64,000 bases of DNA, taken from positions 1-64,000 of the forward strand of contig CALXLN010000127.1 of assembly GCA_944389215.1 (NCBI GenBank). The letters are read 5' to 3'. The notes under the pieces were generated by a model. That model worked only from the letters and a program-made list of their open reading frames with translations, made no database searches and was not told the origin of the DNA. The position numbers and the translations under genes were made by a program. The first letter of the stretch is position 1, and each line of letters starts with the position of its first letter. Source of the stretch: an uncultured Opitutales bacterium (lineage in GTDB: Bacteria > Verrucomicrobiota > Verrucomicrobiia > Opitutales > Intestinicryptomonadaceae). Below, piece by piece: positions 8,776 through 45,698 of this stretch.

Positions 8776-8860
8776 AAATCCGACGCACAATAACACCTTT
8801 TACCGCAAAATTTGCAAGCAAAACACGGAATGACGCCAAGTGTTACGGGCGTTAATGAGC

Positions 8861-8890
8861 TTGACTTTTTTTGGATAATCATAATAATAT
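8861..8890 (+). promoter_or_regulatory. Candidate sigma-70 promoter for the 1396-aa beta-helix gene
   Basis: TTGACT (8861-8866) and TAATAT (8885-8890) are separated by 18 nt. Transcription would begin about 14 nt before the ATG at 8911. No purine-rich Shine-Dalgarno lies in that short leader, so initiation would be leaderless-like or depend on A/U-rich sequence. Confidence 0.4.
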
Positions 8891-8910
8891 TTATTATCTA
8901 TTTTTCAAAA

Positions 8911-11900: not shown

Positions 11901-13101
11901 TTACGGCGGATTCCGCGGAACAGAAAACAATCTTCAAGAACGGACGAGCGGCGCGCGCACAATAATCTCGGCCGACGCCTCGCCCGCTTTCGACAACAAC
12001 TATTCATCTACTTGCCCGCTTGCAAGCGCGCTTATTCAAGACATTTGCTTTGAGGACTCGAAACAAGACGTTGTCAGAAACTTTTTTGCAAACGTCAGCA
12101 TTCTAAATTGCACATTTAAAAATAACCTTTGTGAAAACGGGGCTATATACAACTATCAATCCGCCCCGTACATCGCCAACTGCTCCTTTTTTAACAACAA
12201 ATCAACTTCCGACTTTTTATTTGCAGCAAGCGAAGTTTCTGCAGCACCTCTCACTACTTCCCTTTTATCGGAAGGCTCCACAACAATCATCAATCCGGAT
12301 TTCTACAGATATACCGACGACATATACTCGATGGAAGGCGCGCCGTGCATCGTAAACTGCACCTTTGTAAGGGCCCAACCTTCATCGTCGCACTACCAAG
12401 TTTACAGCAGTTCAGCGGACTCCATCCTTGCGAACTGCCTATTCTGCGGCAGCGAAACTTCTTACAAGAGCCCCAACTGCGCCAATAACGCCGTATACTC
12501 CGGCCCCACGCCAGTTCCCGCAGACAATGGAGGATTTGCCGATACTTTCGCGGTGGAATTTGGAACAAATGCAATCTCTGCTGGAATATCCCAAGACCAA
12601 GTGCAATACCCGATTCCTACCTCGGACGCAAGAGGAGTCGCGCGCGCAAAAAAAAGCACGATTGGAGCCTACGAATACGTTCCCCAAGCAGGATACGAAA
12701 CTTGGGCGGCAAAGAACGACCTCTTTGGAACCGAGACTGCACCGGCGGCGATTACGCAAAACGACGGCATTACAAATGTTGAAAAATACGCTTTCGGGCT
12801 TCCCTGCGACAAGCCTGCAACCTATTTCGACAATTCCCTTTTTTCTGTATCAGCAAGCCGCCAATCCGAAACAATGGCTGACGGCAATTCTGCCGGCGGA
12901 CAACTAGTAATGACGATGAAATACCCCGTTAATTCGTCGGCAACCGACATAAGCGTGAAGGCCTACAAGTCGTACGACCTTTTGGAATGGTCTCCGGCAC
13001 AAGCTCAACCAGACGGATTTGCCGACGGCTACAATCTATTCCGGGTAGACGAAACAGTCCCAAACGGCGGAAAAGTATTTCTAAAATTAGTCGTTGAATA
13101 A
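8911..13101 (+). CDS. Large secreted protein with three beta-helix modules
   Basis: A 1396-aa exported protein. The signal peptide covers residues 1-19 (MKSAFLFALLSLLPHFLFA), which places the start at 8911 rather than further upstream. Three modules open with the same motif, [GD]xDxNDGxxW: near residues 20, 531 and 940. Each continues with a beta-helix rich in NCTF/NSIFY/FANC rungs and YGGF motifs, typical of polymorphic-outer-membrane-protein or DUF1565-like adhesins. Between modules lie Ig-like stretches (YKDGxxI...ASYxA). The last ~110 residues form a separate beta-domain. It is probably surface-displayed or released, binding or acting on glycans. The function is not established. Confidence 0.75.
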   Translation: MKSAFLFALLSLLPHFLFAASRYYVAETGNDSNDGLSWQTAFAGVQKAIDAAAAAATEESPSEVWVAAGTYKHGSPMAMKNNVLIYGGFAGTETELSERDFLKNISVLSGEDSYQIFVNAYTAESPLTGSASLDGFRLEGGKSDSFGGAMQNTHSSPLVSNCVFIGNKTTAPFSKFSAGGAVSNLNSSPIFRSCVFAENKCEQTYGSSSIYPGIFFPAEMGDDFSIYPIETEDAPILIQDTELNEDFVFSNDSFNSTFYFSAGGAIYSASKSSPAFLFCAFYDNYATSVNSILLSESECEIVNCTFYTKTSYKGIEMRAADISASDSSSLKIANSIFYQTSPSDSIFQSGDSQVLAHNCIMSVPYAGEKISGDSPRFMAYGNYAGYPFKFTPLKCDSPAIGAGLSQAALKEKGFKATLLKFDLLQNPVAENPAIGAFEYVPNLAGEIMAQNGLKYAAGSTASLSMECSSEEYIVQYFKDGIPYAEEFSWSGCELPMEFEISETASYSAKLTFPDGTSVQTPTVTLEALPAVVYLSPAGNDLNDGYSWQNAKATFGAALSACAYGATIKMNRGVYKTSPDGYIGAKGIRVCGGFDAAGPDSQNPSNRSIISFPLSLVGAWLEFDAVTFTGNNKLYFEESTLAFSNCSFQDISIESFNSEASYEKCSFYRCGGASIKSPISHSSTSARFANCTFQENLGRDSAAIYSYNSSDVSIIHCTFLNNALSSNGAYNAVLNSSASRATVVNSAFYSIYSSNSSHIQSDSSSLETMLSNALLGASDFSGAFYFRANYGGFANICIYQGAAGISQEDARTFVPEIELPSNDALGIPYTSDNRLIGAVSKGKFLGIYLDDYKDEYSVPLVVLRPNSKFAKDCLLPIRLCCNMELSSQASIKWYKDGAQIEGVLPAIDVAQPEDTASYRAEITDGAEVFSTPELEVSTCPSIIRVSPGGDDSNDGATWESAKRTISAAFEDAGVCTRIWIAEGSYEECGFKLLQAMEVYGGFRGTENNLQERTSGARTIISADASPAFDNNYSSTCPLASALIQDICFEDSKQDVVRNFFANVSILNCTFKNNLCENGAIYNYQSAPYIANCSFFNNKSTSDFLFAASEVSAAPLTTSLLSEGSTTIINPDFYRYTDDIYSMEGAPCIVNCTFVRAQPSSSHYQVYSSSADSILANCLFCGSETSYKSPNCANNAVYSGPTPVPADNGGFADTFAVEFGTNAISAGISQDQVQYPIPTSDARGVARAKKSTIGAYEYVPQAGYETWAAKNDLFGTETAPAAITQNDGITNVEKYAFGLPCDKPATYFDNSLFSVSASRQSETMADGNSAGGQLVMTMKYPVNSSATDISVKAYKSYDLLEWSPAQAQPDGFADGYNLFRVDETVPNGGKVFLKLVVE

Positions 13102-31339: not shown

Positions 31340-31513
31340 TTACTTCTCGACCGCAACTTCGCGGAGCTTTCTGGAAGCTTTTACAGCGCTCGCGTGTATT
31401 TTGCGCTTGCGGGCCGCCAAAAGCCTCTGCCTGCGTGGATTGGGCTTTGCGCCGGGTTTTTTCTTCAAAGGTTTGCGCTTTGCGCACGAAGACCATTGTA
31501 CTAGTCCGCTCAT
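31340..31513 (-). CDS. Small highly basic protein of unknown function
   Basis: A 57-aa predicted protein with 19 Lys/Arg, beginning MSGLVQWSSCAKRKPLKKKPG. It has no membrane segment or recognised domain. Its size, charge and position next to rpmB, in a block of translation genes, suggest a ribosome-associated or nucleic-acid-binding protein, but it matches no ribosomal family I can recall. The start at 31513 has a weak AGAAAGAAA upstream; the frame continues 28 codons further without improvement. It could be spurious. Confidence 0.45.
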   Translation of the reverse strand: MSGLVQWSSCAKRKPLKKKPGAKPNPRRQRLLAARKRKIHASAVKASRKLREVAVEK

Positions 31514-31647
31514 TTTTATTTCTTTCTGTTGCTTATTTGTAAATTTAAAACGAAGCAAGTTAAGACTTTTTTTGCGGCAATCCAGCTTTTTTTTCATTTT
31601 TTTTTCGAGCCTGTGAAACTATGCGAAGTGCGGCGGGTTTATCAGAT

Positions 31648-31676
31648 TTGACAATTGTCCGACAATTTTTAAATTT
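31648..31676 (+). promoter_or_regulatory. Candidate promoter for the ECF sigma gene
   Basis: TTGACA (31648-31653) with an A/T box (AAATTT, 31671-31676) at 17-nt spacing, 15 nt before the sigma ATG. The -10 match is weak. A perfect dyad (31653-31667) overlaps the spacer. Confidence 0.35.
31653..31667. promoter_or_regulatory. Operator-like dyad in the sigma-gene promoter
   Basis: AATTGTC-C-GACAATT, a perfect 7-bp inverted repeat with a 1-nt centre, located between the candidate -35 and -10 boxes. It is the size of a small dimeric repressor site. The protein that would bind it is unknown. Confidence 0.4.
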
Positions 31677-31691
31677 TACGTCGATAAAAAA

Positions 31692-32294
31692 ATGCAAATG
31701 GCAGAAAAAATCGAAAACCCACCCAATTCCGCAGACGAAACCTTTTCCTCAGACCGCTCGGATGAGGATGCCGTTTTGATGCTGCAAGTTGCGGAAGGGT
31801 CCGAGCACGCACTGAGAATGATTATAGAAAAATGGAAAAATCCATTGGCGAATTATTTCTACCGCTCCACCGCGAACCGCCACTCCGCCGAAGACCTTTG
31901 CCAGCAAACATTCGTTAATCTTTATAAGGCCAGAAACTCGTACACTCCAAGGGCTAAATTTTCAACTTACCTGTTTTTTATCGCCCGGCGCGTACTGATA
32001 AACGAGCACCGAAAAAACGCGCGCAGGCCTTCTGACGCTACAGATCCGTCGGAAATGGATTGCCCTGTAAACGGGCGTTCTGATTTGGAAATGTCGGAAC
32101 TGGAGGAAATATTCTACAAAACGCTCGAATCCATGCCGGAAAACCAAAGAACCGCCATTCTGCTTTTAAAGCAGCAAGAACTTTCATACGAAGAAATCGC
32201 AAGTATAATGAACGCCAAAGTAGCTGCCGTAAAAACGTGGCTACACCGCGCAAGGCAAACTTTGCGCGAAGCTTTAGAATTGGTAAAATCATAA
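31692..32294 (+). CDS. ECF-type RNA polymerase sigma factor
   Basis: A 200-aa sigma-70 family protein of the extracytoplasmic-function class. Region 2 covers about residues 55-115 (WKNPLANYFYRSTANRHSAEDLCQQTFVNLYK, then FSTYLFFIARRVLINEHRK). Region 4 covers about 140-195 (LESMPENQRTAILLLKQQELSYEEIASIM with the helix-turn-helix VAAVKTWLHRARQTLR). The downstream gene, 28 nt away, encodes a small single-pass membrane protein that may be its regulator, and the giant prepilin-like gene follows. Its targets are not known; the adjacent locus is the obvious candidate. Confidence 0.93.
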   Translation: MQMAEKIENPPNSADETFSSDRSDEDAVLMLQVAEGSEHALRMIIEKWKNPLANYFYRSTANRHSAEDLCQQTFVNLYKARNSYTPRAKFSTYLFFIARRVLINEHRKNARRPSDATDPSEMDCPVNGRSDLEMSELEEIFYKTLESMPENQRTAILLLKQQELSYEEIASIMNAKVAAVKTWLHRARQTLREALELVKS

Positions 32295-32322
32295 TTCCCC
32301 CACCCCAAAAAAAGCAGCAACC

Positions 32323-32760
32323 ATGAAAAATTCAACTGACCGCATCATAGACGCTTTATTGAAATCATCCCCGTTTTCAACATCGGCGGACTTTACAGAA
32401 AAAACAATGTCCGTCATAAAAAGCACGTCTCGAAACGCCGAATGCATAGCCAGAAGCTCCACGATAGACAGTCTGTTGGCCCGGCGCGACATGGTTCTAG
32501 GAACGTCTTTCACCGACAAAACCTTGGTTTCCATAAGGCAATATAGGATTTTCCGGCACGCGCTGTCGGTCGTTGCGGGATTGTCTGTCGCCGCCTGCGC
32601 AATTTTCGCGATAGGAACAGTAATAAAGAACGGCCCGTCGGCACACTCCGCGCGTCCGGCACTAACGGATTACGCGCAGATGATGGAAATTTCGGAAGAA
32701 ATCAACGCGCTCTCAGCGTTAATAGTCCAAGAGGAATTCCTGGATTACATGCGGCTCTGA
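32323..32760 (+). CDS. Small single-pass membrane protein, possible anti-sigma factor
   Basis: A 145-aa protein with an N-terminal cytoplasmic part (~80 residues), one transmembrane helix (ALSVVAGLSVAACAIFAIG, about residues 80-98) and a short external tail. It has no recognisable zinc-binding anti-sigma motif (no HxxxCxxC). The assignment rests only on its position 28 nt after an ECF sigma gene and on its topology. The 3' end, including the stop codon, is duplicated about 70 nt downstream. Confidence 0.6.
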   Translation: MKNSTDRIIDALLKSSPFSTSADFTEKTMSVIKSTSRNAECIARSSTIDSLLARRDMVLGTSFTDKTLVSIRQYRIFRHALSVVAGLSVAACAIFAIGTVIKNGPSAHSARPALTDYAQMMEISEEINALSALIVQEEFLDYMRL

Positions 32761-32859
32761 CGTTTTGCCGCAATTTGCAAAAAATCAAAGGGTGCACTCG
32801 ATAAAATCATTGCAAGCCGCGCCTGCCCTGACGCTTTGCCGCAATTTGCAAAAAATTAA
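32757..32859. repeat. 32-bp duplication spanning the stop codon of the sigma-linked gene
   Basis: 32757-32788 and 32828-32859 match at 30 of 32 positions. Both contain CTGACG, then TTTGCCGCAATTTGCAAAAAAT. The first copy includes the gene's TGA stop (32758-32760). The copies are separated by 39 bp. Confidence 0.85.
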
Positions 32860-33304
32860 ACGGGCCGCAACGAAAACTTGCAGGTTATTTTTTAGGCGAG
32901 GCTAGTTTTTTATGCGTATTCCCAAAACTGACAGACACTTGAAAAACCAGATTGCAACGCCGCGCAATACCGCGTAAAAAAACCGAATACGGCTTATAAA
33001 AATCCGACAAATTCCGATATTACAACTTGGGATTGTCGAAACATTTCAACGCTGAATTGGAAACAATCCCTACCCCAACAAACACACAACACTCAACTAA
33101 AAACGCAACAGAGTCGGCGCCAAGCCAAATATCTAATCGGCCAATCGGCGGATTTTTTTAGAAAAGCGGATATTTCCTCCTTGCGGGGAACGGGAACAAG
33201 ACAAACAACGGTTGTTTTTTCAACCTTTTATTTAAACTAAATTTTAAAAGTTGGCGTTAATTTTGCTTGCGTTGCTTGGAGGCTGCTGTTAGCAGTTTAA
33301 TCAT
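32761..33304. other. 544-bp spacer ahead of the giant prepilin-like gene
   Basis: No gene is seen. It contains the 32-bp duplication at its left end, a pair of GGAAC boxes (33187-33191 and 33193-33197) of the kind recognised by some ECF sigma factors, a 7-bp dyad (33203-33217), and the Shine-Dalgarno/hairpin leader of the next gene. Its length suggests that the giant gene has its own promoter. Confidence 0.5.
33203..33217. promoter_or_regulatory. Operator-like dyad upstream of the giant gene
   Basis: AAACAAC-G-GTTGTTT, a perfect 7-bp inverted repeat with a 1-nt centre. It has the same geometry as the dyad at 31653-31667, but a different sequence. It lies 6 nt after a GGAAC box. Confidence 0.35.
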
Positions 33305-33307
33305 ATG
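33278..33307 (+). promoter_or_regulatory. Strong Shine-Dalgarno separated from the start codon by a hairpin
   Basis: GGAGG (33278-33282) is 22 nt before the ATG at 33305, too far for normal initiation. Immediately after it, CTGCT-GTT-AGCAG (33283-33295) forms a perfect 5-bp hairpin. Folding would leave about 9 nt between Shine-Dalgarno and ATG, near the optimum. An in-frame TAG at 33290-33292 excludes an earlier start. Most neighbouring genes lack a Shine-Dalgarno this strong. Confidence 0.55.
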
Positions 33308-36300
33308 AAACTCCCATATAAATTTAGAGAGACCCCATCCCTAAAAAATGGCAAAAAAAGAAAGGCGTTTGCGCTGGTGCTGGCGTTGGCGCTTATGGGC
33401 TTTATGGTTCTATTGATCGTATCGCTTGCGACAATGGTTCAAATGCAAATGCGCCTCAGCAGGCAATCACTCAACGACTTTAAAGCCAAACAGGCCGCTA
33501 AATACGCGGCTTATCAGGCGATGGGGCAAATCCAATCCACTCTGGGCCCGGACCAGAGAATCTCCGCCAATGCTATGATTTTCGACGACGCGGTAACGGA
33601 TGAAATAACGTCGCTTGAAACCAACGCATCTTACGACTGGTGGGTATCCCCGGTATCTCTCACTCGAGAAGATGTCGCGCAAATTAACGATATAGCGCTT
33701 TCGCAAAACCGCTACTGGGTCGGGGTATGGGATTCGTCCTTGGGCAAGGCCCCCAGCAAGCAGGGACAGAACCAAGAGCGCAACGAATACGTCCAAAATA
33801 CTGTAAAACAAGCTCTGACATGGCTGGTTTCCGGAAACGGGATAAGAGGGGAATCCGACAAGGAAGGCACAAGCGTCAAGTATAAGCCCACCGAATCTCT
33901 CGAAGCGGGCAAATATGTGCGCGCAGTCAGCTCCGGATCGTCCACAGACTCTTACGGATCGGCGTCGCCAAGCACGGACGTTTTGGCTCCGATAGTAACC
34001 CTTGACAAAGACCCCGATCCGCTGACCGGCGAAGTGAGAAGCACCGGCAAGGAAACCCGCATAGCCTGGTGGGTGTCCGACGAAGGGCAAAAAGCGTCGC
34101 TCAACGCTGTGGCGTCGAAGCAATACTTTGAGCATGCGGAATCCATCAGATACCGCAAACAAAGCCTGCCGTTCTACTCCGGAATACATGGGCTTACCCT
34201 CCCGACCGGAGGAACGGGAAGCTCCGTCTTTGACTTGGACTTCGACGACAGCGAAGATTCGAGTTCTATGAACCGAATCAGAAACCTGGACGACGTAAAA
34301 CAAATAGATATCCTCAAAGGATCCAGCGTACCCGAAAACCTGATACTATCAAAACTGTTCTTCCATGACGTTACCTTTGGGACAAAAGGCCTGCTTGTCA
34401 ACGTCCGCGACGGCGGCTTGAAAAAAGACCTGTCGCTCGGATTGACAAAAAAAGATTTTTCAAACGAAAATCCGACAGAAAAAGGGAAAACCACAAAACC
34501 CGAATATTTCGAGCGGCCGTACGGCATAGGCGGATACGACTTTAAAACGTCGGCCTATCCCCTTATTCCCAGCAATTTTAAAGACGACCGCAAAATCCGT
34601 GCGGATAAAAGCCTGAAAGGCATGGGGCATATATTCGGGCCCCAGATGTACGGGCACGAAGACCTTTCGAGCGGAATCGGTTTTCAATCGGCGTCGTCAA
34701 TCGCCATCCTAAGCCAACTGTTCGACGACAGGTTCCTTTGGAAAGACACCGGAGGCCCCTTGTGGGACCAATTGCGCTCGTACTACAATATGCGCGCGTC
34801 CGACAATGAGGAAGGTATGACGCAAGTAGTGCAAACCGACGACAGAATTGGGCTAAAACCGGTTGTAAAACGCTTCCAAGTGTTTTTCGTGCCGTGTTTT
34901 ACTAGATATGACGCGGATTTGTATGGTTTGAGGCTAAACATAGTCCCCATGATGGTTCTATGGAATCCCTACGACGTAAAAATAGGCGGCAAGGAGAAAA
35001 CTTATTACGCGATTCGCGTTTACAGCTACTTTAAGAATTTCATAGGTTCTTTCAGATTTGCAATCGGATATGAAAGCGCCGGAAGATTCCAGTGCCTCCG
35101 CGACCTATTTACAGAATTTATGCCTTGGTATGGAGACGATCCGCTAAATACCGGAAACGCTATTAAGCTTCATACAAGAAACAATACGTCCGCCCTTAAA
35201 GCTTATGCGTTTAGGCTGTCTCAATACGGGCGTTGGGACGGAACGCTTGACTATGACTTTGGTATTTCTTCCATAACAGCGCCAAGTTCCAACGCCATAG
35301 GTCCAATGATGTCCAGAAAAACGGCTTTCTACGGACCAACCCTCGACGCGGAAAATTTGGGTTCAAGCATAGAAAACAGCTTAAATGCCTCCGACTATAA
35401 ATTATTCTATCCATTGGGATACGGCTCTATCGCTCCCGCCCGTTTTGAAACGGAAGGCGGTTTCATAAATCTTTCCGAAGACTCAATCGGAACGTTAAGA
35501 AGCATAGTTTCGGAATCCAATCTAGTGCCAAGTTTCAGAGACGCATTTGGTTATTCCGGAAGCATGAGAACAGATGCGGGCAGAAGCTGGACCGCGCGTG
35601 TGGCAAAGATACCGCTGTATCTCAACAATTTGCTAATAAGCGTAGCCCACGGTTCGACAATGAGTATGTCAAAATCCGGCGGCGACAGCTACCTGTTCTA
35701 TCCCCAGCGCGAAATCGACGCCTTCAACCCGACTTCAACCGCCATGACCGGACACAATAGAGACACCATGAGCGGCAACTTGCATTTCCTTGCGGTTGAC
35801 GAAAACGGATTGGAACCGGGCGAAGCCAAGTTATTCGTCATGGAAAACATTATAAACTACCTTGGCGACCCGACCTTAAAATCCAACCATCTTGACGCAA
35901 AAGGCAACAACGGCCCCAACGGAGTTATCGAATATAAGACCAGCTCCACTTCTCCATACGAGAACAAAGGCGCTCTGATGAAGCCGTATTCCGGCGGCAT
36001 AGGTTGCCTCTATCTTGATGTTCCACACGCCGAAACGGAGCACCAAACAAAATACGACGGCGCAAATTACAGGCCTTGGTGGGGCGCAAAATTAGTTCCC
36101 GGGAAAAACCAAAGAAAGTTCCGTTACGCCCTGTTTGATTTGGGTTTGATTAGAACATACAGAAACGATTTGATAGATCCGCAAATGCAGTATCCCCCGA
36201 CAAACATAAATAATTATATGATAGATATGGAGGATATTGTAGGCGTAAATATACCCCATGTGGAAAATATGGCACATACCGCTTTTTATTCCACTTTGAA

Positions 36301-39130
36301 TATGACTCCAATCGGTTACGGCCTTGTAACTTATTTCCCGCAATACTTGTCGAGCCAGGGTTGGGTTGACGGCGTAAGAGCCGGAGAAACCGGGATTGAG
36401 AAATATTTCGCACAGCACCGCGAATCAGCCACATATTGGGAACTTGAACTCGATGTGTGGATGTGGGATAGAGAAGGATTCAGATTCTCTGAAATAACCA
36501 ACAGCGAAAATATAACGACTAGGTCGATGAAGCCGGCGCACGCTCCAATGATAGCGTATATGCGCGGATACAGATTCTCAATGGGAGAATGGGCGCACAG
36601 CTTCCCGGATCCGAGCGTTACAATGAATATTACCGCAACGAGCATCAATGAATCCACAAACGCCCCGTATAACGGGCATTCTCCGGGATTGGCTCTGACA
36701 ACAGGCGGACAGCAAATGTACCTCGCAGCGGTTCCTTTTTATAAAAACTACAAAGACATAGAAGAAGGCTATCTTGCCGCGGACGGAGACTCCGGAAATA
36801 CAATCCAAGGCGCAGCCGGAAAGAATCCGCAGGAAGAATACAAAAACTTCGCAGATGATGTATTCGACGAAGATGGCAAGATTAGAGAAGACGCTGTGAT
36901 AGGCAATGGAACTAGCGGCAATACATTTGAGTTTAGATTGCGCTATTACTTAAACTGGCTCGGAATAAACTCTCGCCGCCATTCGGCAAACTCTTGGATG
37001 TTATACGGAAGAAAATCGACGATTCAAACAGGAGATTTAATAGACGCCGCGCCGCGAGCCATAAAACGCCCCCTAATTGTCGAGGCAAATAGCAACACCT
37101 ACATGGACCAGCTTGCACAAGACTTGGCCTCGGAAAGCGATACGGACAACAAAGTGCCGTACGGCATTGTATTTGCCCAGTCATATCCGAAAGCAAATCT
37201 CGGCTTGCAGGGATTCTTCAATAAGAAGATGTTCGTAAACGGAAATGTTTTGGCGACAGCTTTTGAATCCGACAACAATGCCCAAGACATGACAAACGGG
37301 ACGCTAAAAGACTTCGCCAACAGTTTCGGGCGACTCCAAAAGACAGCCCAGGCGCTTACCCAAGTATGGGGAACAAACGGAGACGGCATTTCCAAGCTTG
37401 CGTATAAGATCAACCACCGCAGCGGAAACGTTAGAGTCGGTATCGACGATGAAAACGGCAACGCCTACAACGCCCCCGTATACCACGTTTTGCGCGAAAC
37501 GGAAGTTGTTTCGAATCCGGCAAACTTGGCCGGAGCGCAACTTTCATTCGGATCAGGCAAGTATGAATTGACAACTTGGAACGATCCACCATCATTAGCT
37601 ACCGGAAGAGGATCGCCTTTCTATCGCTCGTACGGTGTCGGATATCCTGAATCACTGAACGCAAGTTTCCCGATAGGAAATTCGCTATGTCCTTCGCGTA
37701 TAGTTCCGGACAGATCTTTCCAAGTTACTTGGATAGACGGATCTTCCAAGATATTCTATACAAGAGGCGGCAACTATGATAGCGGACAAAAAGACGGCCA
37801 AAGAGAGCCAAGTTGGAACGAAGACAAAAATACCATTTACGACATGTCCTGGCACCTCAACAACGCGCTCTGGGACGAGTATTTCTTCTCCACCCTGCCC
37901 TATCGCAACGACGATTATGAAAACCCTGTGGATTCGGAAATCGCAATGCCTTTGAATCCGCGCATACAATACTGCAATTCTTCGCCCAGAGCCATAAAAG
38001 ATTCCACTATGATAAAGTTGGACCACTCCTCTCTGCGCGACTCCCCGGAAGACCAGTATTATGAAAATGCGGCGAGATTCTGGATCAACGGTCCGTTCAA
38101 CGTAAACTCCACAAGTGTAGACGCATGGAAAGTAGTGCTCTCAACATTCTACGGAAATCAAGTTGAAGGCTACGACGACACTACCGGTTCGACAAACGAC
38201 CGCGCGTCGTTCCATCGCTACGCCGCGCCCTACTCCGCAGCAAATCCGGTTACAGAAAGTACGAGCATAGACGAAGACGGCACGTACATGAAGAGCTTCA
38301 GGGCTTTGAGCATGGATGAGATAGAGGAGCTGGCACTCTCGATTGTGGAACACATAAAAGACCGCGGTCCATTCTATTCAATGTCCCACTTTGTAAACCG
38401 CGTCGTAGGCAATCCATCGGCGGAAGAGCGCTATACTGACGCGTTGGGAAATAATCTGTTGCCCCTCTATAAAGAAGGCGAAGACCGCAGGAATCTTGCC
38501 CAAGAATATAAGGACAACGGCGGTACATACAAGATACGCCATATGCAAAAAGGCGTACTGCAAGACGCCATCGACAGAACTTCCATCAACCGCCAGTTCC
38601 ATACGGATCCGGATTACATAATAAGCGTAGACAACGGCCGTAATATAACTGAACTTTTTGAAGACGACAACAGAATGAACCTTCTGAAAGACCCGCGCGA
38701 TGTCTGGGAAAATTGGCGCGGAGCTGTAGGTCCACAGATTATGGGAGCCCCCGGCTACCTAATGCAACAGGATATTCTTGCCCGCTTGGGCTCATTCTTG
38801 ACTGTGCGTTCTGACACTTTCAAGATCAGGGCTTACGGAGAAGTCAGAAATCCGATTTCAGGAATTGTTGAAGGAAAGGCGTGGTGTGAAATGGTAGTCC
38901 AACGCGTTCCCGAGTATATCGACCAAACTGAGCAGGACCAGGAAGCATGGCGCATATCCGGCCGCGAAGCTGAAATTGGATCTCAAAACGGCGCAAATGT
39001 AACAATCGGCGAAAACAAGCTTCCGCTCGACGAGATTGTAGACGAACTCGTATCATCGGACGTTAACAAGACGCTTGGCCGCAGGTTTAAGATTGTGTCA
39101 TTCAAATGGCTTAACGAGAAAGAAATCTAA
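33305..39130 (+). CDS. Giant prepilin-like protein, Verru_Chthon cassette A-like
   Basis: A 1941-aa protein. A short basic N-terminus (KNGKKRKAF) precedes a prepilin-like hydrophobic helix ALVLALALMGFMVLLIVSLA (about residues 23-42), then the conserved segment GPDQRISANAMIFD (about 79-92). The Lys-Ala-Phe junction replaces the usual Gly-Phe cleavage site, so processing is uncertain. A GspK-like region lies near residues 1660-1700 (MDEIEELALSIVEHIKDRGPF, SHFVNRVVG). The C-terminal block TVRSDTFKIRAYGEV...CEMVVQRVPEY is typical of this verrucomicrobial family as I recall it. The middle ~1500 residues are large and Tyr/Asn/Gly-rich. The expected small prepilin partners B, C and D are absent nearby. 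The likely role is in an envelope or pseudopilus-like structure. Confidence 0.75.
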   Translation: MKLPYKFRETPSLKNGKKRKAFALVLALALMGFMVLLIVSLATMVQMQMRLSRQSLNDFKAKQAAKYAAYQAMGQIQSTLGPDQRISANAMIFDDAVTDEITSLETNASYDWWVSPVSLTREDVAQINDIALSQNRYWVGVWDSSLGKAPSKQGQNQERNEYVQNTVKQALTWLVSGNGIRGESDKEGTSVKYKPTESLEAGKYVRAVSSGSSTDSYGSASPSTDVLAPIVTLDKDPDPLTGEVRSTGKETRIAWWVSDEGQKASLNAVASKQYFEHAESIRYRKQSLPFYSGIHGLTLPTGGTGSSVFDLDFDDSEDSSSMNRIRNLDDVKQIDILKGSSVPENLILSKLFFHDVTFGTKGLLVNVRDGGLKKDLSLGLTKKDFSNENPTEKGKTTKPEYFERPYGIGGYDFKTSAYPLIPSNFKDDRKIRADKSLKGMGHIFGPQMYGHEDLSSGIGFQSASSIAILSQLFDDRFLWKDTGGPLWDQLRSYYNMRASDNEEGMTQVVQTDDRIGLKPVVKRFQVFFVPCFTRYDADLYGLRLNIVPMMVLWNPYDVKIGGKEKTYYAIRVYSYFKNFIGSFRFAIGYESAGRFQCLRDLFTEFMPWYGDDPLNTGNAIKLHTRNNTSALKAYAFRLSQYGRWDGTLDYDFGISSITAPSSNAIGPMMSRKTAFYGPTLDAENLGSSIENSLNASDYKLFYPLGYGSIAPARFETEGGFINLSEDSIGTLRSIVSESNLVPSFRDAFGYSGSMRTDAGRSWTARVAKIPLYLNNLLISVAHGSTMSMSKSGGDSYLFYPQREIDAFNPTSTAMTGHNRDTMSGNLHFLAVDENGLEPGEAKLFVMENIINYLGDPTLKSNHLDAKGNNGPNGVIEYKTSSTSPYENKGALMKPYSGGIGCLYLDVPHAETEHQTKYDGANYRPWWGAKLVPGKNQRKFRYALFDLGLIRTYRNDLIDPQMQYPPTNINNYMIDMEDIVGVNIPHVENMAHTAFYSTLNMTPIGYGLVTYFPQYLSSQGWVDGVRAGETGIEKYFAQHRESATYWELELDVWMWDREGFRFSEITNSENITTRSMKPAHAPMIAYMRGYRFSMGEWAHSFPDPSVTMNITATSINESTNAPYNGHSPGLALTTGGQQMYLAAVPFYKNYKDIEEGYLAADGDSGNTIQGAAGKNPQEEYKNFADDVFDEDGKIREDAVIGNGTSGNTFEFRLRYYLNWLGINSRRHSANSWMLYGRKSTIQTGDLIDAAPRAIKRPLIVEANSNTYMDQLAQDLASESDTDNKVPYGIVFAQSYPKANLGLQGFFNKKMFVNGNVLATAFESDNNAQDMTNGTLKDFANSFGRLQKTAQALTQVWGTNGDGISKLAYKINHRSGNVRVGIDDENGNAYNAPVYHVLRETEVVSNPANLAGAQLSFGSGKYELTTWNDPPSLATGRGSPFYRSYGVGYPESLNASFPIGNSLCPSRIVPDRSFQVTWIDGSSKIFYTRGGNYDSGQKDGQREPSWNEDKNTIYDMSWHLNNALWDEYFFSTLPYRNDDYENPVDSEIAMPLNPRIQYCNSSPRAIKDSTMIKLDHSSLRDSPEDQYYENAARFWINGPFNVNSTSVDAWKVVLSTFYGNQVEGYDDTTGSTNDRASFHRYAAPYSAANPVTESTSIDEDGTYMKSFRALSMDEIEELALSIVEHIKDRGPFYSMSHFVNRVVGNPSAEERYTDALGNNLLPLYKEGEDRRNLAQEYKDNGGTYKIRHMQKGVLQDAIDRTSINRQFHTDPDYIISVDNGRNITELFEDDNRMNLLKDPRDVWENWRGAVGPQIMGAPGYLMQQDILARLGSFLTVRSDTFKIRAYGEVRNPISGIVEGKAWCEMVVQRVPEYIDQTEQDQEAWRISGREAEIGSQNGANVTIGENKLPLDEIVDELVSSDVNKTLGRRFKIVSFKWLNEKEI

Positions 39131-39183
39131 TTGCCGCGACAAAGGTTATCGAATGGCGACAACCCTATAAATTCGACAATACG

Positions 39184-39912
39184 ATGATAAGAAAATTAAT
39201 TTCAATAATAACATCGCTCTTTATATTTTTACCGCTTGTCCATGCTCAAGAAGACATGGTTGACATGAAACTAAGCATATATAGGTGGGGATTTTCAAAT
39301 TCCATGAAAATCCCCGACCTTGAAACCGGCAGAGTTTCCCAGATAACTTCTGGAGCGGCAAATGCAGAGTTGTGGTATAAAACCAACGATCAATGGAAAT
39401 CCCTCAACATAACCGCCGGAGAGCGTTCAAAGGTAATACAATATAACGGGCCACGCCTGATGATATTCTATAGCCGTTCAAAGGACAAGGATGGCAAACC
39501 GGTATATAAAGAAAACTCAAGAATGCTCCTGCCTGCGAATGCGAGCGAATCATTCGTTCTTATGTTTAAAACCGGCAGCACCGCCAAGTTTTATCCGATG
39601 AACGTGTCTCCACAGCGCCTCCCCAAAGAAAAGTTGGCAATCATGAATATGACAATACATCCGGCGGGAGTCGTTGCAGGCGGCGATGCAAAGATACTCA
39701 AACCCGGAGCTTTTACCATATTTACGCCTAAAAAGCGCGAGAAAGACGGAATGGAAGTCAAACTGGCAAAATTCGACAAGAATCTGAATAAATGGCGCCA
39801 AGTGTACGACAACGCCGTAACTATTCCCGACAATAAACGTTGCTTGATGCTTCTATACGATCCGTACAACTCAAAAACTCCAAAATTCACAATTCAGATC
39901 TTAACTCTGTAG
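39184..39912 (+). CDS. Secreted protein of unknown function, partner of the giant protein
   Basis: A 242-aa protein with a signal peptide ending at LVHA-Q (about residue 21). The mature part is beta-rich, with no recognised domain. Segments such as ELWYKTNDQWKSLNI and DKNLNKWRQVYDNAVTI look like two internal related halves (a 'K...W...L/V' pattern). It begins 53 nt after the giant gene and is closed by a strong terminator, so it is the last gene of the unit. It may be a periplasmic or surface cofactor of the giant prepilin-like protein (inference from position only). Confidence 0.6.
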   Translation: MIRKLISIITSLFIFLPLVHAQEDMVDMKLSIYRWGFSNSMKIPDLETGRVSQITSGAANAELWYKTNDQWKSLNITAGERSKVIQYNGPRLMIFYSRSKDKDGKPVYKENSRMLLPANASESFVLMFKTGSTAKFYPMNVSPQRLPKEKLAIMNMTIHPAGVVAGGDAKILKPGAFTIFTPKKREKDGMEVKLAKFDKNLNKWRQVYDNAVTIPDNKRCLMLLYDPYNSKTPKFTIQILTL

Positions 39913-39974
39913 CGCGGATTTGCAGAGCGCCAAAATCGCCGGTTACAATCAATTGGATACGGATTTATCTTATG

Positions 39975-40006
39975 AGGGAGGCCTTAAAAAGGCCTCTCTT
40001 TTTTTA
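39975..40006 (+). terminator. Intrinsic terminator of the prepilin-like unit
   Basis: 11-bp stem from AGGGAGGCCTT with AAGGCCTCTCT (one G-U pair), AAA loop, then a run of T residues. Confidence 0.9.
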
Positions 40007-40080: not shown

Positions 40081-41181
40081 ATGCAGGATTTTTTTGAACT
40101 TAAGAACATAGTAAAATCCTTCGGAGAGAATCGCGTCGTAAAAGGGGCGAACTTCGGAGTGCGCTGCGGCGAAGTATTTTCCCTGTTGGGCCCGAGCGGT
40201 TGCGGCAAAACCACGATTTTAAGAATCGCGGGGGGATTTGAAGATCCGGATTCCGGCTCCGTGCATTTGGACGGCAAAGACATAACTGACATGCCGCCCA
40301 ATAAACGCAAAATAAATACCGTCTTTCAAAATTACGCGCTGTTTCCGCATATGACGGTTTACGACAACATAGCTTTCGGGCCCAGAACCGCCGGAATGGA
40401 AGAAAAGAAAGTGGCGGAAATGGTCGATGAAATGCTTAAAATGATACGCCTTGAAGCCCATGCGGCAAGCAAGCCCGACACGATAAGCGGCGGACAAAAA
40501 CAGCGCGTTGCAATAGCCAGAGCCCTAATAAACCAGCCCAAGCTGCTGCTGCTCGACGAACCCCTAGCGGCTCTCGATTTAAAATTGCGCCAATACATGC
40601 TTCTTGAACTCGACAGGATACACGACGAAGTCGGCACAACATTCATATACGTTACCCACGACCAAAGCGAGGCGATGAGTTTAAGCGACCGAATCGCCGT
40701 AATGAATAACGGCGTTATAGAGCAAATAGGAACTCCCGCTGAAATTTACGAAAATCCTCGCACAAAATTTGTAGCCTCGTTTATAGGGGACACAAACTTC
40801 TTTAACGCCAAGGTCGGAGAGTTGCTGGATGGCGAATATTGCAAAGTCGACATGTTCGGTCTTGGCGAATTCCCTTCCTACAACGAGCACAAGCTAAATG
40901 CCGGCGCAAAAGTAACTGTAAGCATACGCCCCGAAAAATTCAGAATTTTTGACAAAAAGCCTGAAACCGACCTGAACTCTTTTGAAGCCGAAGTCATAGA
41001 CATAGTATATCAAGGCGCGCAAACCCGCTATTGGGTAAAGGCAAAGGACCACCGCATAAATATAGTAACCCAGCACAATCGCTGCTACCTGGACTATAAA
41101 CAGCCGACTTGGGGCGACAAAGTCTGGGTTGCGTGGCATCGGGACGACGTTACAACTCTGCCGGAAGAATCTCCACATTAG
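40081..41181 (+). CDS. potA: Spermidine/putrescine ABC transporter ATPase
   Basis: A 366-aa ATPase of the polyamine importer. It has Walker A GPSGCGKTT (residues ~39-47), Q-loop NYALFPHMT, signature ISGGQKQRVAIARAL, Walker B LLLLDEPLAALD and H-loop VTHDQ. The C-terminal TOBE domain covers about residues 245-360. It is the first gene of a four-gene potABCD operon with gaps of 6 nt, a 4-nt overlap, and 20 nt. Confidence 0.93.
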   Translation: MQDFFELKNIVKSFGENRVVKGANFGVRCGEVFSLLGPSGCGKTTILRIAGGFEDPDSGSVHLDGKDITDMPPNKRKINTVFQNYALFPHMTVYDNIAFGPRTAGMEEKKVAEMVDEMLKMIRLEAHAASKPDTISGGQKQRVAIARALINQPKLLLLDEPLAALDLKLRQYMLLELDRIHDEVGTTFIYVTHDQSEAMSLSDRIAVMNNGVIEQIGTPAEIYENPRTKFVASFIGDTNFFNAKVGELLDGEYCKVDMFGLGEFPSYNEHKLNAGAKVTVSIRPEKFRIFDKKPETDLNSFEAEVIDIVYQGAQTRYWVKAKDHRINIVTQHNRCYLDYKQPTWGDKVWVAWHRDDVTTLPEESPH

Positions 41182-41187
41182 GTTAGA

Positions 41188-42105
41188 ATGAACAGCCAAC
41201 AAAAGTCGGAAAAACACATTCGCGGCGGCTCGACAGTTGCCGAATATTTGTTGACGATACCTTCGTTCGTATGGCTGTGCATTTTCTTTTTAGTTCCAAC
41301 AATTCTTGTATTCGCAATAGCTTTTAGAACAGCCGATCCGTTTGGCGGAATAGACTCGGGCTGGACGCTCGAAACAATAGCAAACGTTCTAAGAGCCGAT
41401 TATGTATCCGTATTTTGGCGCACAATCTGGGTGAGTTGCGTTGTTACAGCAATATGCCTGCTGCTTGGAATTCCGGTAGGATACTGGATAGCCCAGCAAA
41501 ATCCAAAATACCGTTATTGGTATTTATTGGCTGTCATAATTCCGCTGTGGACAAATTTTCTCATACGAATTTTTGCGTGGCGGGTTCTGCTGCATCCGGA
41601 GGGATTTTTGCGCCGGACACTTCTATGGCTGGGACTAATTCCCGAAGACCTCTTTCTTCTCAACAATATGGGCGCGGTAATTATCGTAACTGTATATACC
41701 TGCCTGCCCTTTGCAATTCTTCCGATATACGCGGCGGCGGAAAAATTCAATTTTTCTTTAATAGAGGCGGCAAGAGATTTGGGTGCGTCGCGATTTTACG
41801 CGTTCCGCTCCATATTCCTGCCAGGGATAAAGAGGGGAATCATAACGGCAATTCTCGTAGTTTTCATTCCTGCCATGGGCTCGTACGCAATTCCAGACTT
41901 GGTTGGCGGAGCGGACGGAGAATTGTTGGGCAATAAAATAGCAATAAGAGCCTCCGCCAACAGAAACCTTCCTGAAGCGGCAGCTTTGGCTGCGCTGCTC
42001 TCGCTTATAATAACTGTGCCTGTACTGGTTGCTTTTCTAAAGCAGAAGCGCGTATTCAGGATAATAACGAACCTTAGGCGTTCCGCGGGAGACTCCACAA
42101 AATGA
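41188..42105 (+). CDS. potB: Polyamine ABC transporter permease PotB
   Basis: A 305-aa inner-membrane permease with about six helices. The EAA loop that contacts the ATPase is EAARDLGASRFYAFRSIFLPG near residues 195-215. The long hydrophilic N-terminus before the first helix (~25 residues) is common in PotB. The stop overlaps the potC start as ATGA. Confidence 0.92.
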   Translation: MNSQQKSEKHIRGGSTVAEYLLTIPSFVWLCIFFLVPTILVFAIAFRTADPFGGIDSGWTLETIANVLRADYVSVFWRTIWVSCVVTAICLLLGIPVGYWIAQQNPKYRYWYLLAVIIPLWTNFLIRIFAWRVLLHPEGFLRRTLLWLGLIPEDLFLLNNMGAVIIVTVYTCLPFAILPIYAAAEKFNFSLIEAARDLGASRFYAFRSIFLPGIKRGIITAILVVFIPAMGSYAIPDLVGGADGELLGNKIAIRASANRNLPEAAALAALLSLIITVPVLVAFLKQKRVFRIITNLRRSAGDSTK

Positions 42106-42875
42106 AATCGCGCTATACGTCGCTTCTTGTTACGTTGCTAGTGTTGGCGTTTATGTACATGCCGATTGTAATGCTCGTGTCGCAATCATTTAACGCGTCA
42201 AGATACGGCGGGAAATGGACCGGATTTTCACTGAAATGGTACGAGGCGCTTTTTAACGATTACAGCGTAATAAACGCAGCCACAAATACGATTGTCATAG
42301 GTCTGGCAGCGACATTGTTTGCAACAATAATAGGAGCGTGCGCGGCTTGGACTTTAAACAAATACAAACGCTCCAAACTGCAGACTTTGCATTACGGACT
42401 AGTTTACGCCCCGCTGGTAGTTCCAGATGTGCTTATGGGAATAAGCCTACTGCTTATGTTCGTAAGCATGAAAGTCGATTTGGGCCTAACGACAGTAATT
42501 CTTGCGCACATAACATTCTGCGTGAGTTTTGTAACGTTTACAGTGCTTGCACGCCTCCAGGACTTCGATTTCAACTTAATCCAGGCAGCGGAAGATTTGG
42601 GGGCGGGCAACGCGAGAATATTCCTAAAAATAATACTTCCCCTGCTTGGGCCGGGAATAGCGGCGGGAGCAATGATGGCTTTTACCCTTTCCATGGACGA
42701 TTTCGTGGTAACGTTTTTTGTGGGAGGTCCGGGCAGCACGACGCTCCCTGTAAAAGTGTACAGCATGATGAAACACGGTCCGCCCGCAATAATAAACGCG
42801 CTCTCAGTCATCTTTATGGCTTTGACTTTTACCGTTGCCATCGCAGGACAATTTTTAACACGCAAAAAATTCTAA
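42102..42875 (+). CDS. potC: Polyamine ABC transporter permease PotC
   Basis: A 257-aa second permease with about six helices. The start MKSRYTSLLVTLLVLAFMYMPI is typical of PotC, and the EAA loop is QAAEDLGAGNARIFLKIILPL near residues 163-183. It forms a heterodimeric channel with PotB. It overlaps the potB stop by 4 nt, a translational-coupling arrangement. Confidence 0.92.
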   Translation: MKSRYTSLLVTLLVLAFMYMPIVMLVSQSFNASRYGGKWTGFSLKWYEALFNDYSVINAATNTIVIGLAATLFATIIGACAAWTLNKYKRSKLQTLHYGLVYAPLVVPDVLMGISLLLMFVSMKVDLGLTTVILAHITFCVSFVTFTVLARLQDFDFNLIQAAEDLGAGNARIFLKIILPLLGPGIAAGAMMAFTLSMDDFVVTFFVGGPGSTTLPVKVYSMMKHGPPAIINALSVIFMALTFTVAIAGQFLTRKKF

Positions 42876-42895
42876 CAACCAATAAGACTTCAATA

Positions 42896-43939
42896 ATGAA
42901 AATCTATAAAATTATCTCCACCGCAGCAATTGCGCTTGCGGCATTAATGCTTTGGGGCTGCGGCCCGTCAAAACCGATTTTAAACGTGTATATGTGGTCC
43001 GACTACATAGACCCGGAACTCGTGCAAGACTTTGAAAAAGCCCACAACTGCAAAGTGGTAATAGATATTTTTGACTCCAACGAATCGATGTACGCCAAGT
43101 TAAAGGCCGGAGGGTCCGGATATGATGTAATTCTGCCCACAACATATATGGCAAAGATTATGTCAGATCAAAAAATGATAGACAACCTAGACCACGCCAA
43201 GCTGCCAAACTTAAAATATATCTCCAAAAGCTACCTCAACGATTTGGCTCTGGATAAACAGATGAAATATAGTGTGCCGTATATGATTGGATACACGTGC
43301 GTAGCCTACAACAAGGAAAAACTGGGCGAAATAGAGAATTCGTGGAATATATTCGGAAACGAAGCCCTGAAAGGCAGAATGACCCTTCTAAACGACTTGC
43401 GCGAAACCATTGGAGCCGCATTATTTTTCCAAGGCAAAAGCATGAACACCACAGACGACGCCTCCCTTGAGGCAGCCAAGCAGCAGGTCATAAAATGGAA
43501 GAAAAACTTGGCTAAGTTCGACAACGAAGTTTACAAAGTCGGAATACAATCGGGAGAATTTCTAGTAGTCCAAGGATACAGCGGAGACCTGTTCCAAGTG
43601 CTAGACGAGACCCCTGCACTTGCCTATATGTGCCCCAAAGAGGGAATATCCATGAGCTGCGACGATTGGGTTATTCCAACCACCGCAAAGAATAAAGATT
43701 TGGCTTACGCCTTTATAAACTTTGTGTGCGACCCGAAAAACGCTGCAAAAAACATGGAGTTTACCTGTTATAGCTCACCAATTCCGGAGGCGCGCCAATA
43801 CGTTTCGGAAGAAAACAAGAACCATCCCGGAATGTTTATACCAGACGACCTTTACAAACGCGGCGAACTCATAAGAGACCTCGGCGAAGACAACGCAAAA
43901 TACATAAAAATCTGGGACGAAATTAAATTGTCGCAATAA
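42896..43939 (+). CDS. potD: Polyamine-binding lipoprotein PotD
   Basis: A 347-aa periplasmic solute-binding protein. A lipobox (ALMLWGC, Cys22) suggests it is a lipoprotein, unlike the soluble E. coli PotD. The mature N-terminus ILNVYMWSDYIDPELVQDFEK is a strong PotD/PotF hallmark, followed by YDVILPTTYMA, VPYMIGYTCVAYNKE and MTLLNDLRETIGAAL. The ATG at 42896 is chosen because it opens the signal peptide; the same frame is open far upstream inside potC but is not coding there. Spermidine versus putrescine preference cannot be read here. Confidence 0.93.
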   Translation: MKIYKIISTAAIALAALMLWGCGPSKPILNVYMWSDYIDPELVQDFEKAHNCKVVIDIFDSNESMYAKLKAGGSGYDVILPTTYMAKIMSDQKMIDNLDHAKLPNLKYISKSYLNDLALDKQMKYSVPYMIGYTCVAYNKEKLGEIENSWNIFGNEALKGRMTLLNDLRETIGAALFFQGKSMNTTDDASLEAAKQQVIKWKKNLAKFDNEVYKVGIQSGEFLVVQGYSGDLFQVLDETPALAYMCPKEGISMSCDDWVIPTTAKNKDLAYAFINFVCDPKNAAKNMEFTCYSSPIPEARQYVSEENKNHPGMFIPDDLYKRGELIRDLGEDNAKYIKIWDEIKLSQ

Positions 43940-43962
43940 ACGCGATTTTTATATCTTTAAGG

Positions 43963-43991
43963 ACGCGCCGCACAACCCGGCGCGTTTTTTT
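43963..43991 (+). terminator. Intrinsic terminator of potABCD
   Basis: Perfect 8-bp stem ACGCGCCG/CGGCGCGT (43963-43970 and 43978-43985), 7-nt loop, followed by a T7 tract. Confidence 0.9.
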
Positions 43992-44045
43992 ATCGGCTTG
44001 CGTTTTATTTCAGCCGGCTTAGATTCCAATAAAGCAGAAATAGAT

Positions 44046-45698
44046 ATGAAGCTTTCAAATTTTTTACCATTGATATTGATACTTGCCTTACTATCCGGGG
44101 GATGCTCGACATCCCCGGATTATTCCGAAGGCGCAAACCTTGTTCCTGAAAGCCCATCCGGCACTCCAAACGTCTGGTGCACATGGCGCGCGCAAACAAG
44201 AATGGCCGAAGCCGCAAAAATTGCGAAAACAAAGGCAAAATTTGCCGGCGACCAAGGCGGCGCGGCCTATGGCGCGCGCGACAATATGAACGAACGCATA
44301 ATTTTCGGAGAAAACGGACAGGGAGGTTTTGCCGAACATTACCCCGAAGTCCGCTCGGATATGTTTCTGCTTTTCGACGACGGTTGGGACGTGCCGTTTA
44401 AATCGTCAAATGCCGACGACATTGCGCGCTTTGGCTCTTTGGTCTTAAACGAAGACAGGTTTCCGTCTTTCACAGGCACTCCGCGCGAACGCCTAAAAAA
44501 GCTCAACGACGCTGTAATAGAGCGTGGATGGCGCGGAGCCGGTCTTTGGATTGCCGCGCAAAAGGTCGGAGAAAAATGGAATTCAGACAAAGTTCCCGCA
44601 GAAAGCCAATACGAATATTGGAAAGAGCGCGTGCTCTGGTGCAAATACGCTGGAATAAAATACTGGAAAGTGGACTGGGGCGCGCATTTAGACGATATTC
44701 AATTTCGCAAGATGTTGACTGACATCGGCAAAAAATACCATCCGGATTTGATAATAGAGCACAGCATGCCCTCAAGCCCTTTAAACGGGCTCGTTCTCGA
44801 CGCTAAGACCTCTGAACCTACGGGAGGCGGCAGAATGAAAGACTGGAACGACAAGGCTTTTCTGTCGGACTTGGAAAAACTCATACCGCTTGTAGATTGC
44901 ATTAGAACTTACGATGTAATCGGCCATCTGGAAAATGCAACTACTTTCGACAGAATAGCCTATTATCTTGAGAAAGGAAAGCGTTCAAACTCATCCGCAA
45001 TCCTGAACGGAGAAGACGCTCTATATATGTGCGCAACGCTTGGATTGTCTTGCGGAGTCATGAGAACTCCGCTTTATCCTCCAAAAGAAAACGGAAAAAT
45101 TATGGACGGCAGCGCCGAGGTTGCGCGCGCTGTGCGCTGGCATAGAATCGCGCCGGCCTTTGCCTTGAATGCTGCCGATATCAATGTGTCAGGCGAAATT
45201 CTAAAAGACACCCAGTTCTTTCCCAAAGGCTCTACATGGTGCACAACAGCCGACGGGAAAACCGTCTGGCAATGCGCGCCGGCTGCAATTTCGCGCGGGC
45301 TACCTCTGCCGGAAGTCAAGGCGGACGGCGAAAAGCCTTTTGTCGCCGCGTCTAAAAACCCCAATGGCGCCATTGCAGTCGGAGCGTTCGGAAGAGTTTC
45401 AGCCAAGGATGGATTCCGAACTCCCGCCGCAGACGTGTTTGTTGACGCAGATATATCCGACACAATAGCGGGTATTTTTGGAAACTTTAAAAGCGTTACG
45501 TTCAAAGTCTCAAAGAATATCGCAAAAGTTCTCGCGCAGGATTTGGCGGCAAATAAAGCCGTAGATATAACAAACCGCGTTAAAATCGGCAACGGTAAAA
45601 TTACAATCAGCGGGGACGTGTTGCGCTCGCTATGTCCGCCAAAGTCGGGGAATGACGCATCCGAACCGGGAGTTGCGGTTCTGGCTATAAGAAAATAA
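44046..45698 (+). CDS. Lipoprotein glycoside hydrolase, clan GH-D-like
   Basis: A 550-aa protein with a lipoprotein signal (LSGGC, Cys20). A TIM-barrel pattern follows. FLLFDDGWD (about 107-115) resembles the DDGW strand of GH27/GH36 enzymes, and GIKYWKVDWG (about 203-212) carries an Asp where clan GH-D has its nucleophile. TYDVIGHLENA and the C-terminal beta-sandwich complete the fold. It probably acts on alpha-galactosides or related alpha-linked sugars at the outer membrane, but the exact family needs a profile search. The start at 44046 opens the signal peptide. It is followed 21 nt later by an SGNH hydrolase gene. Confidence 0.65.
   Translation: MKLSNFLPLILILALLSGGCSTSPDYSEGANLVPESPSGTPNVWCTWRAQTRMAEAAKIAKTKAKFAGDQGGAAYGARDNMNERIIFGENGQGGFAEHYPEVRSDMFLLFDDGWDVPFKSSNADDIARFGSLVLNEDRFPSFTGTPRERLKKLNDAVIERGWRGAGLWIAAQKVGEKWNSDKVPAESQYEYWKERVLWCKYAGIKYWKVDWGAHLDDIQFRKMLTDIGKKYHPDLIIEHSMPSSPLNGLVLDAKTSEPTGGGRMKDWNDKAFLSDLEKLIPLVDCIRTYDVIGHLENATTFDRIAYYLEKGKRSNSSAILNGEDALYMCATLGLSCGVMRTPLYPPKENGKIMDGSAEVARAVRWHRIAPAFALNAADINVSGEILKDTQFFPKGSTWCTTADGKTVWQCAPAAISRGLPLPEVKADGEKPFVAASKNPNGAIAVGAFGRVSAKDGFRTPAADVFVDADISDTIAGIFGNFKSVTFKVSKNIAKVLAQDLAANKAVDITNRVKIGNGKITISGDVLRSLCPPKSGNDASEPGVAVLAIRK

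Follow-up and report, generated by a model that had tools for sequence, protein, structure and literature searches.

The Verru_Chthon cassette, represented by the family models TIGR02600 (A), TIGR02598 (B), TIGR02599 (C) and TIGR02596 (D), combines a giant A protein with small prepilin partners, and at 15 canonical loci these genes mostly form one block in the order B-C-A-D; no paper naming the cassette was found in the literature searched. In the type II secretion system (T2SS), GspK/XcpX, a protein of about 300 aa that belongs to the HIJK tip complex, is a cap without Glu5, and the absence of this residue is a mark of tip-capping subunits (review PMC10191384). Large heads at the tip of type-4 filaments are known from the modular pilins PilB/PilC of S. 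sanguinis and from the PilC/PilY1 tip adhesins (PMC10191384). Within the order Opitutales, a report on Verruconatronum gives 67 PulG-like copies, one of them in an alginate-induced cluster (PMC13274419).

Here we describe a locus from an Opitutales gut lineage that shares features with each of these systems. It encodes a giant A protein with the ALVL-type start and W..DE..K motif of the Verru_Chthon cassette, and other parts of the genome encode small prepilin partners of the B and D type and a C-like prepilin whose length matches. In contrast to the canonical cassette, A is paired with a 242-aa protein, here called P4, the A-P4 pair is split from a set of pilin genes (G-G-D-B-C) and separately amplified, and all members score below the curated cut-offs. 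The giant and its homologues differ from GspK in size (about 930-2000 aa), in occurring in several copies per genome in relatives, and in having P4 as a partner. Unlike the heads of the modular pilins and PilY1, the large head would be inserted inside a K-type cap, being neither grafted on nor a separate non-pilin protein. As in Verruconatronum, many pseudopilin-like copies are found at polysaccharide loci, and the consulted part of that report describes neither A-P4 pairs nor a shared cassette that lacks A (PMC13274419). We conclude that the system is probably a distant Verru_Chthon-type filament in which the cap gene is separated from the core pilins and, in relatives, multiplied. Genome-wide statements below rest on searches of genome assemblies.

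Layout and conservation of the locus

The window, i.e. the whole 64,000-nucleotide stretch of DNA that was analysed, carries four genes on the forward strand, as described in the initial annotation: an ECF sigma factor (200 aa; 31692-32294), a small membrane protein with one helix (145 aa; 32323-32760) 28 nt 3' of the sigma gene, the giant (1941 aa; 33305-39130) and P4 (39184-39912), which has a signal-peptide-like N-terminus. The strong terminator that had been noted is real (12-pair stem, loop of 3, T tract) and closes the A-P4 unit, but it sits past the locus end first assigned, at 39974-40000 on the same strand. The order of the four genes is kept in most species of the same genus. A sister genus shows it in two genomes, in one of which a 145-aa protein was read behind the sigma gene, and 12 giant proteins can be aligned along their length with 38-51% identity; the locus is therefore not a chance arrangement. 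B, C and D genes are absent from the window locus.

Several neighbouring features were also recorded. Divergent to the sigma gene lies a gene for a 57-aa basic protein (MSGLVQWSSCAKRK...; 31340-31513, reverse strand), whose place is kept in relatives including G001 (L255:6280-6453), and between the two is a T-rich conserved element (TTCCAGCTTTTTTTT..ATTTTTTT; about 31573-31610). After the terminator, ABC transporter genes (40081-45698) encode an ATPase with a TOBE domain, two permeases and a further ORF, and they stay downstream of P4 in the relatives L049 and L057. Two large right-handed beta-helix proteins of 777 and 1429 aa are encoded at 5627-7960 and 8812-13101.

The sigma factor and its putative anti-sigma factor

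According to Pfam the ECF sigma factor consists of regions 2 and 4 only (Sigma70_r2, 1.7e-16; Sigma70_r4_2, 3.1e-16), and it is 43-63% identical to 11 relatives. The 145-aa protein carries a pair of N-terminal repeats (IDxLL...FxD), a single TM helix and a conserved C-terminus (DYAQMSxI..EI), and no Pfam anti-sigma domain was detected in it. In relatives its gene is likewise found 3' of the sigma gene, even in G001, where the sigma gene has moved, and we regard the protein as a putative anti-sigma factor.

The sigma gene is preceded by a conserved ECF-type promoter (31612-31643, +; core 31616-31639) of the form G[AC]AACTTT-N13-[CGT]GTT, which has the same spacing throughout (12 species, and also G001 and G012; 14 in total), with one or two changes in the window and two other species. 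The window's site scores 22.2, the best in the window (next 15.0), and 13.1 in a leave-one-out model, the site having been part of the full model. This promoter is probably autoregulatory, judging from sequence comparison. Before the giant the motif is not clearly above chance (two of 14 sites, both marginal), and the same holds before the pilin cassette (one of 11); for a regulon across the whole genome the motif was too weak. The giant gene has its own conserved promoter-like element (TTGCTTGC ... TGTTAG; 33263-33292, +), the TTGCTTGC-like box of which recurs at a similar place in 12 of 14 relatives and is unlike the sigma promoter, and TTGACA-like boxes were seen by eye before the cassette. 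Given this lack of a clear sigma motif and the element of the giant's own, direct control of the giant by the ECF sigma factor is unsupported.

Twelve genomes have the sigma gene and the giant as neighbours. G001 (three contigs, 96% complete) is different: 1.29 Mb separates the two genes, and the sigma/anti-sigma pair is still intact together with its promoter. The linkage at first looked broken in G011 and G012 too, but these were set aside, since either break could be due to a contig end and G012 contains another copy of A. The initial annotation took a dedicated sigma factor to suggest a self-regulated envelope or pseudopilus-type system; neighbourhood in 12 genomes and a probably autoregulatory promoter speak for a dedicated sigma factor of a self-contained system, but the lack of a clear motif at the giant and the arrangement in G001 leave it unproven. 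A stronger version, in which sigma, anti-sigma, giant and P4 make up one regulon and the giant or P4 sends a signal that is released through the anti-sigma factor, would fit the four-gene order kept in most of the genus (g1) and in the sister genus (g2) as well as the conserved promoter of the sigma gene. We consider it unlikely, because this promoter was not clearly found before the giant or the cassette, the giant has a promoter-like element of its own, the sigma unit survives apart from the giant in G001, and A-P4 loci outside the family have no homologous sigma gene beside them.

The giant is a distant relative of Verru_Chthon A

The N-terminus of the giant (...KKRKA|FALVLALALMGF) has the form of a class III prepilin start in which position +5 is Leu in place of Glu. 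A search with TIGR02600, as the initial annotation had proposed, left the giant below the curated cut-off of 332.3 bits, with no match at E up to 1, and yielded none in its own genome; relatives in the order match the model at positions 1-63 only (18-27 bits), and the class holds many Verru_Chthon-like proteins. With hhalign the giant family aligned with canonical Verru_Chthon A in the N-terminal block (E 2.7e-12) and at the common W..DE..K motif (E 1.3e-5), in keeping with the resemblance noted in the initial annotation, and the C-terminal 'LTxRSxTF' block was suggestive only in the profile comparison. Taken at the level of sequence profiles, the giant is thus a distant relative of Verru_Chthon A.

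When the C-terminus was compared by hhalign with Verru_Chthon A and with the GspK of the genome, neither match was significant, and the giant had no match to a GspK family model in NCBIfam or Pfam; neither the giant and P4 nor the profiles built from them had a useful match in Pfam, NCBIfam or PDB sequences. The GspK-like core covers about aa 17-300 and 1490-1941, and between these parts is a lineage-specific insertion of about 900 aa in which no fold was recognised. A second giant A copy of 1982 aa occurs in L056 (G012:C126) without a P4 neighbour; the next gene there encodes a protein of 425 aa with AAYRRRRK at its C-terminal end.

The pilin cassette is split from the giant

Elsewhere in the same genome, contig C57 carries five prepilin genes (here named G225, G208, D234, B208 and C367) plus one for a 237-aa non-pilin protein. 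Glu5 is present in all five prepilins, and the cassette contains no cap gene. Best matches, all below the cut-offs, were TIGR02598 for B208 (1.9e-6; 28.2 of 51.4 bits), TIGR02596 for D234 (7.5e-8; 32.7 of 70 bits) and GspG for G225 and G208; C367 did not match TIGR02599. The cassette adjoins obg, and in the sister genus (L006/L007) both parts are found in one locus with the order sigma-giant-P4-galM-obg-G-G-D-B-C-F. In the closed genome G118 D-B-C-A-P4 are contiguous, and G025 has the order D-C-A-P4. The C57 cassette, the sister-genus linkage, the shared obg neighbour and the G118 arrangement together identify the giant as the predicted A/K member of a split cassette. The giant is consequently not the orphan A protein that it was first taken for: B-, C- and D-like prepilins and two GspG-like pilins are encoded apart from it in its own genome, a result that the initial annotation had named as refuting its view, and the same set is linked to it in the sister genus.

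All five cassette genes recur throughout the window's genus, and the C gene, which was tested in 36 relatives, occurs in all giant-bearing members of the genus except G013, where its absence is probably an assembly effect. After the cassette, a non-pilin protein of 145-237 aa (L134:5812-6525 and relatives) has a conserved N-terminus (xSxEQ...RFLIDDL). The one-contig genome G010, listed in the same genus, had no match for A, C, the prepilins or a T2SSE ATPase; it may truly be without type-4 filaments or be unlike the other genomes, and we treated it as uninformative.

The genome also encodes a prepilin peptidase, several T2SSE-type ATPases and, on contig C115, a separate and complete GHIJK set of T2SS pseudopilins. 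It could be argued that the giant caps this ordinary T2SS, or a T4P filament, while G-G-D-B-C has another role, and in many relatives within the order A-P4 indeed lies away from any pilin gene. We find this improbable: a GspK (6.6e-14) is already part of the T2SS set, linkage of A with D/B/C genes is seen in the sister genus, G118 and G025, and the cassette is without a cap gene where it was inspected in the order.

Predicted folds of the giant's homologue and of P4

The relation to GspK was settled by a fold search. An AlphaFold model was made for a homologue of about 1000 aa from G025 (29-sequence alignment; mean pLDDT 63, only the core being confident); its elements are an N-terminal helix of 62 residues, a domain made up of helices and a sheet at the C-terminus. 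Its best structural match was GspK (3ci0_K; Z 13.6, 239 of 280 residues, rmsd 3.1), which covers model residues 35-949 with the helical insertion domain included; XcpX followed with Z 13.4, and the next unrelated match had Z 6.2. Foldseek alone also placed GspK at the top, weakly (E 0.12). The GspK-like features pointed out initially are thereby seen as a GspK fold in the homologue, and on this predicted fold the giant would be a K-type cap. Glu5 is absent in 31 of 31 giant homologues, all with a prepilin-type start, and as cap subunits likewise lack it this points to a cap-like protein.

The AlphaFold model of P4 has two beta-sandwich domains (pLDDT 87). Matches to PepT2, AlgF and a cytolysin domain (Z 8-9) reflect a widespread fold, the beta-sandwich, and were given no functional meaning. 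In a profile search P4 was found beside nearly every A of the order and at none of the 15 canonical Verru_Chthon loci of other orders. A neighbourhood survey of P4 had been suggested; in G231 (one contig) an A gene adjoins P4 at 20 of 20 loci, compared with 0 of 20 control regions.

One cassette and many probable caps in Opitutales

P4 is present in 61 of the 103 genomes sampled from the order, with up to at least 27 copies. Twelve genomes, mostly multi-copy, have one full-length C gene each, and the 14 regions inspected carry G-G-D-B-C or a part of it without A, i.e. a headless cassette. Opitutales genomes with one such cassette have from one to at least 27 A-P4 pairs. As A-P4 is amplified in free-living Opitutales while G-G-D-B-C stays single, the caps probably share one filament.

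Among the neighbours of A-P4 in G231 are sulfatases (6 of 79), LacI (5) and GntR (3) regulators and GDSL esterases (4) as well as the glycoside hydrolases GH42 and GH43 and porphyranase; in the G231 control list none of these families had two or more members. In the window, no obvious polysaccharide operon is seen immediately beside the A-P4 locus. We tentatively propose, with somewhat less than even confidence, that Opitutales assemble one core type-4 filament with a single headless G-G-D-B-C operon and equip it with interchangeable giant GspK-like caps, each with its P4 and often in polysaccharide-utilisation loci, the tips being swapped with the food, and that the window's gut lineage has kept one enlarged cap next to the ECF sigma pair. 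That the giant is instead a membrane-anchored surface adhesin or enzyme outside any filament, reusing a prepilin-type anchor, would suit the large part of it that lies outside the GspK-like core and the at least 27 copies against one pilin cassette, but it is the least probable of the readings considered, given the linkage with pilin genes and the retention in the homologue model of the whole GspK fold, far C-terminal strands included, across the insertion, which a mere anchor would not need.

Proposed mechanism and significance

Our preferred reading, which we hold to be likely, is that the giant serves as the K-type cap at the tip of a type-4 filament or pseudopilus of the Verru_Chthon kind, together with the D-B-C minor pilins, the two GspG-like pilins and P4, and that caps probably share the filament. 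The mechanism is read from the genes, their linkage and copy numbers, homology, the missing Glu5 and the fold of the homologue. Prepilin peptidase would cut the prepilin-like start of the giant, which, lacking Glu5, would join the minor pilins D, B and C (GspH-, GspI- and GspJ-like) along with the GspG-like pair and sit at the filament tip, carrying its very large inserted head. P4, predicted to be an exported double beta-sandwich protein, would work with the head as a chaperone, a ligand-binding or an anchoring partner. The sigma/anti-sigma pair would be an autoregulated unit of its own, found beside the giant in most species, that may or may not control it. Different caps would use a common filament, each of them being adapted to one polysaccharide or to the enzymes acting on it, and in the gut species the cap may serve in surface or glycan binding.

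Verrucomicrobiota play a major part in the breakdown of complex and sulfated glycans. If our reading is correct, A and P4, which belong to no Pfam or NCBIfam family and occur in about 60% of the Opitutales genomes that were sampled, would be given a concrete role, and a single filament carrying many swappable giant tips would link secretion or substrate capture with diet in a new manner.
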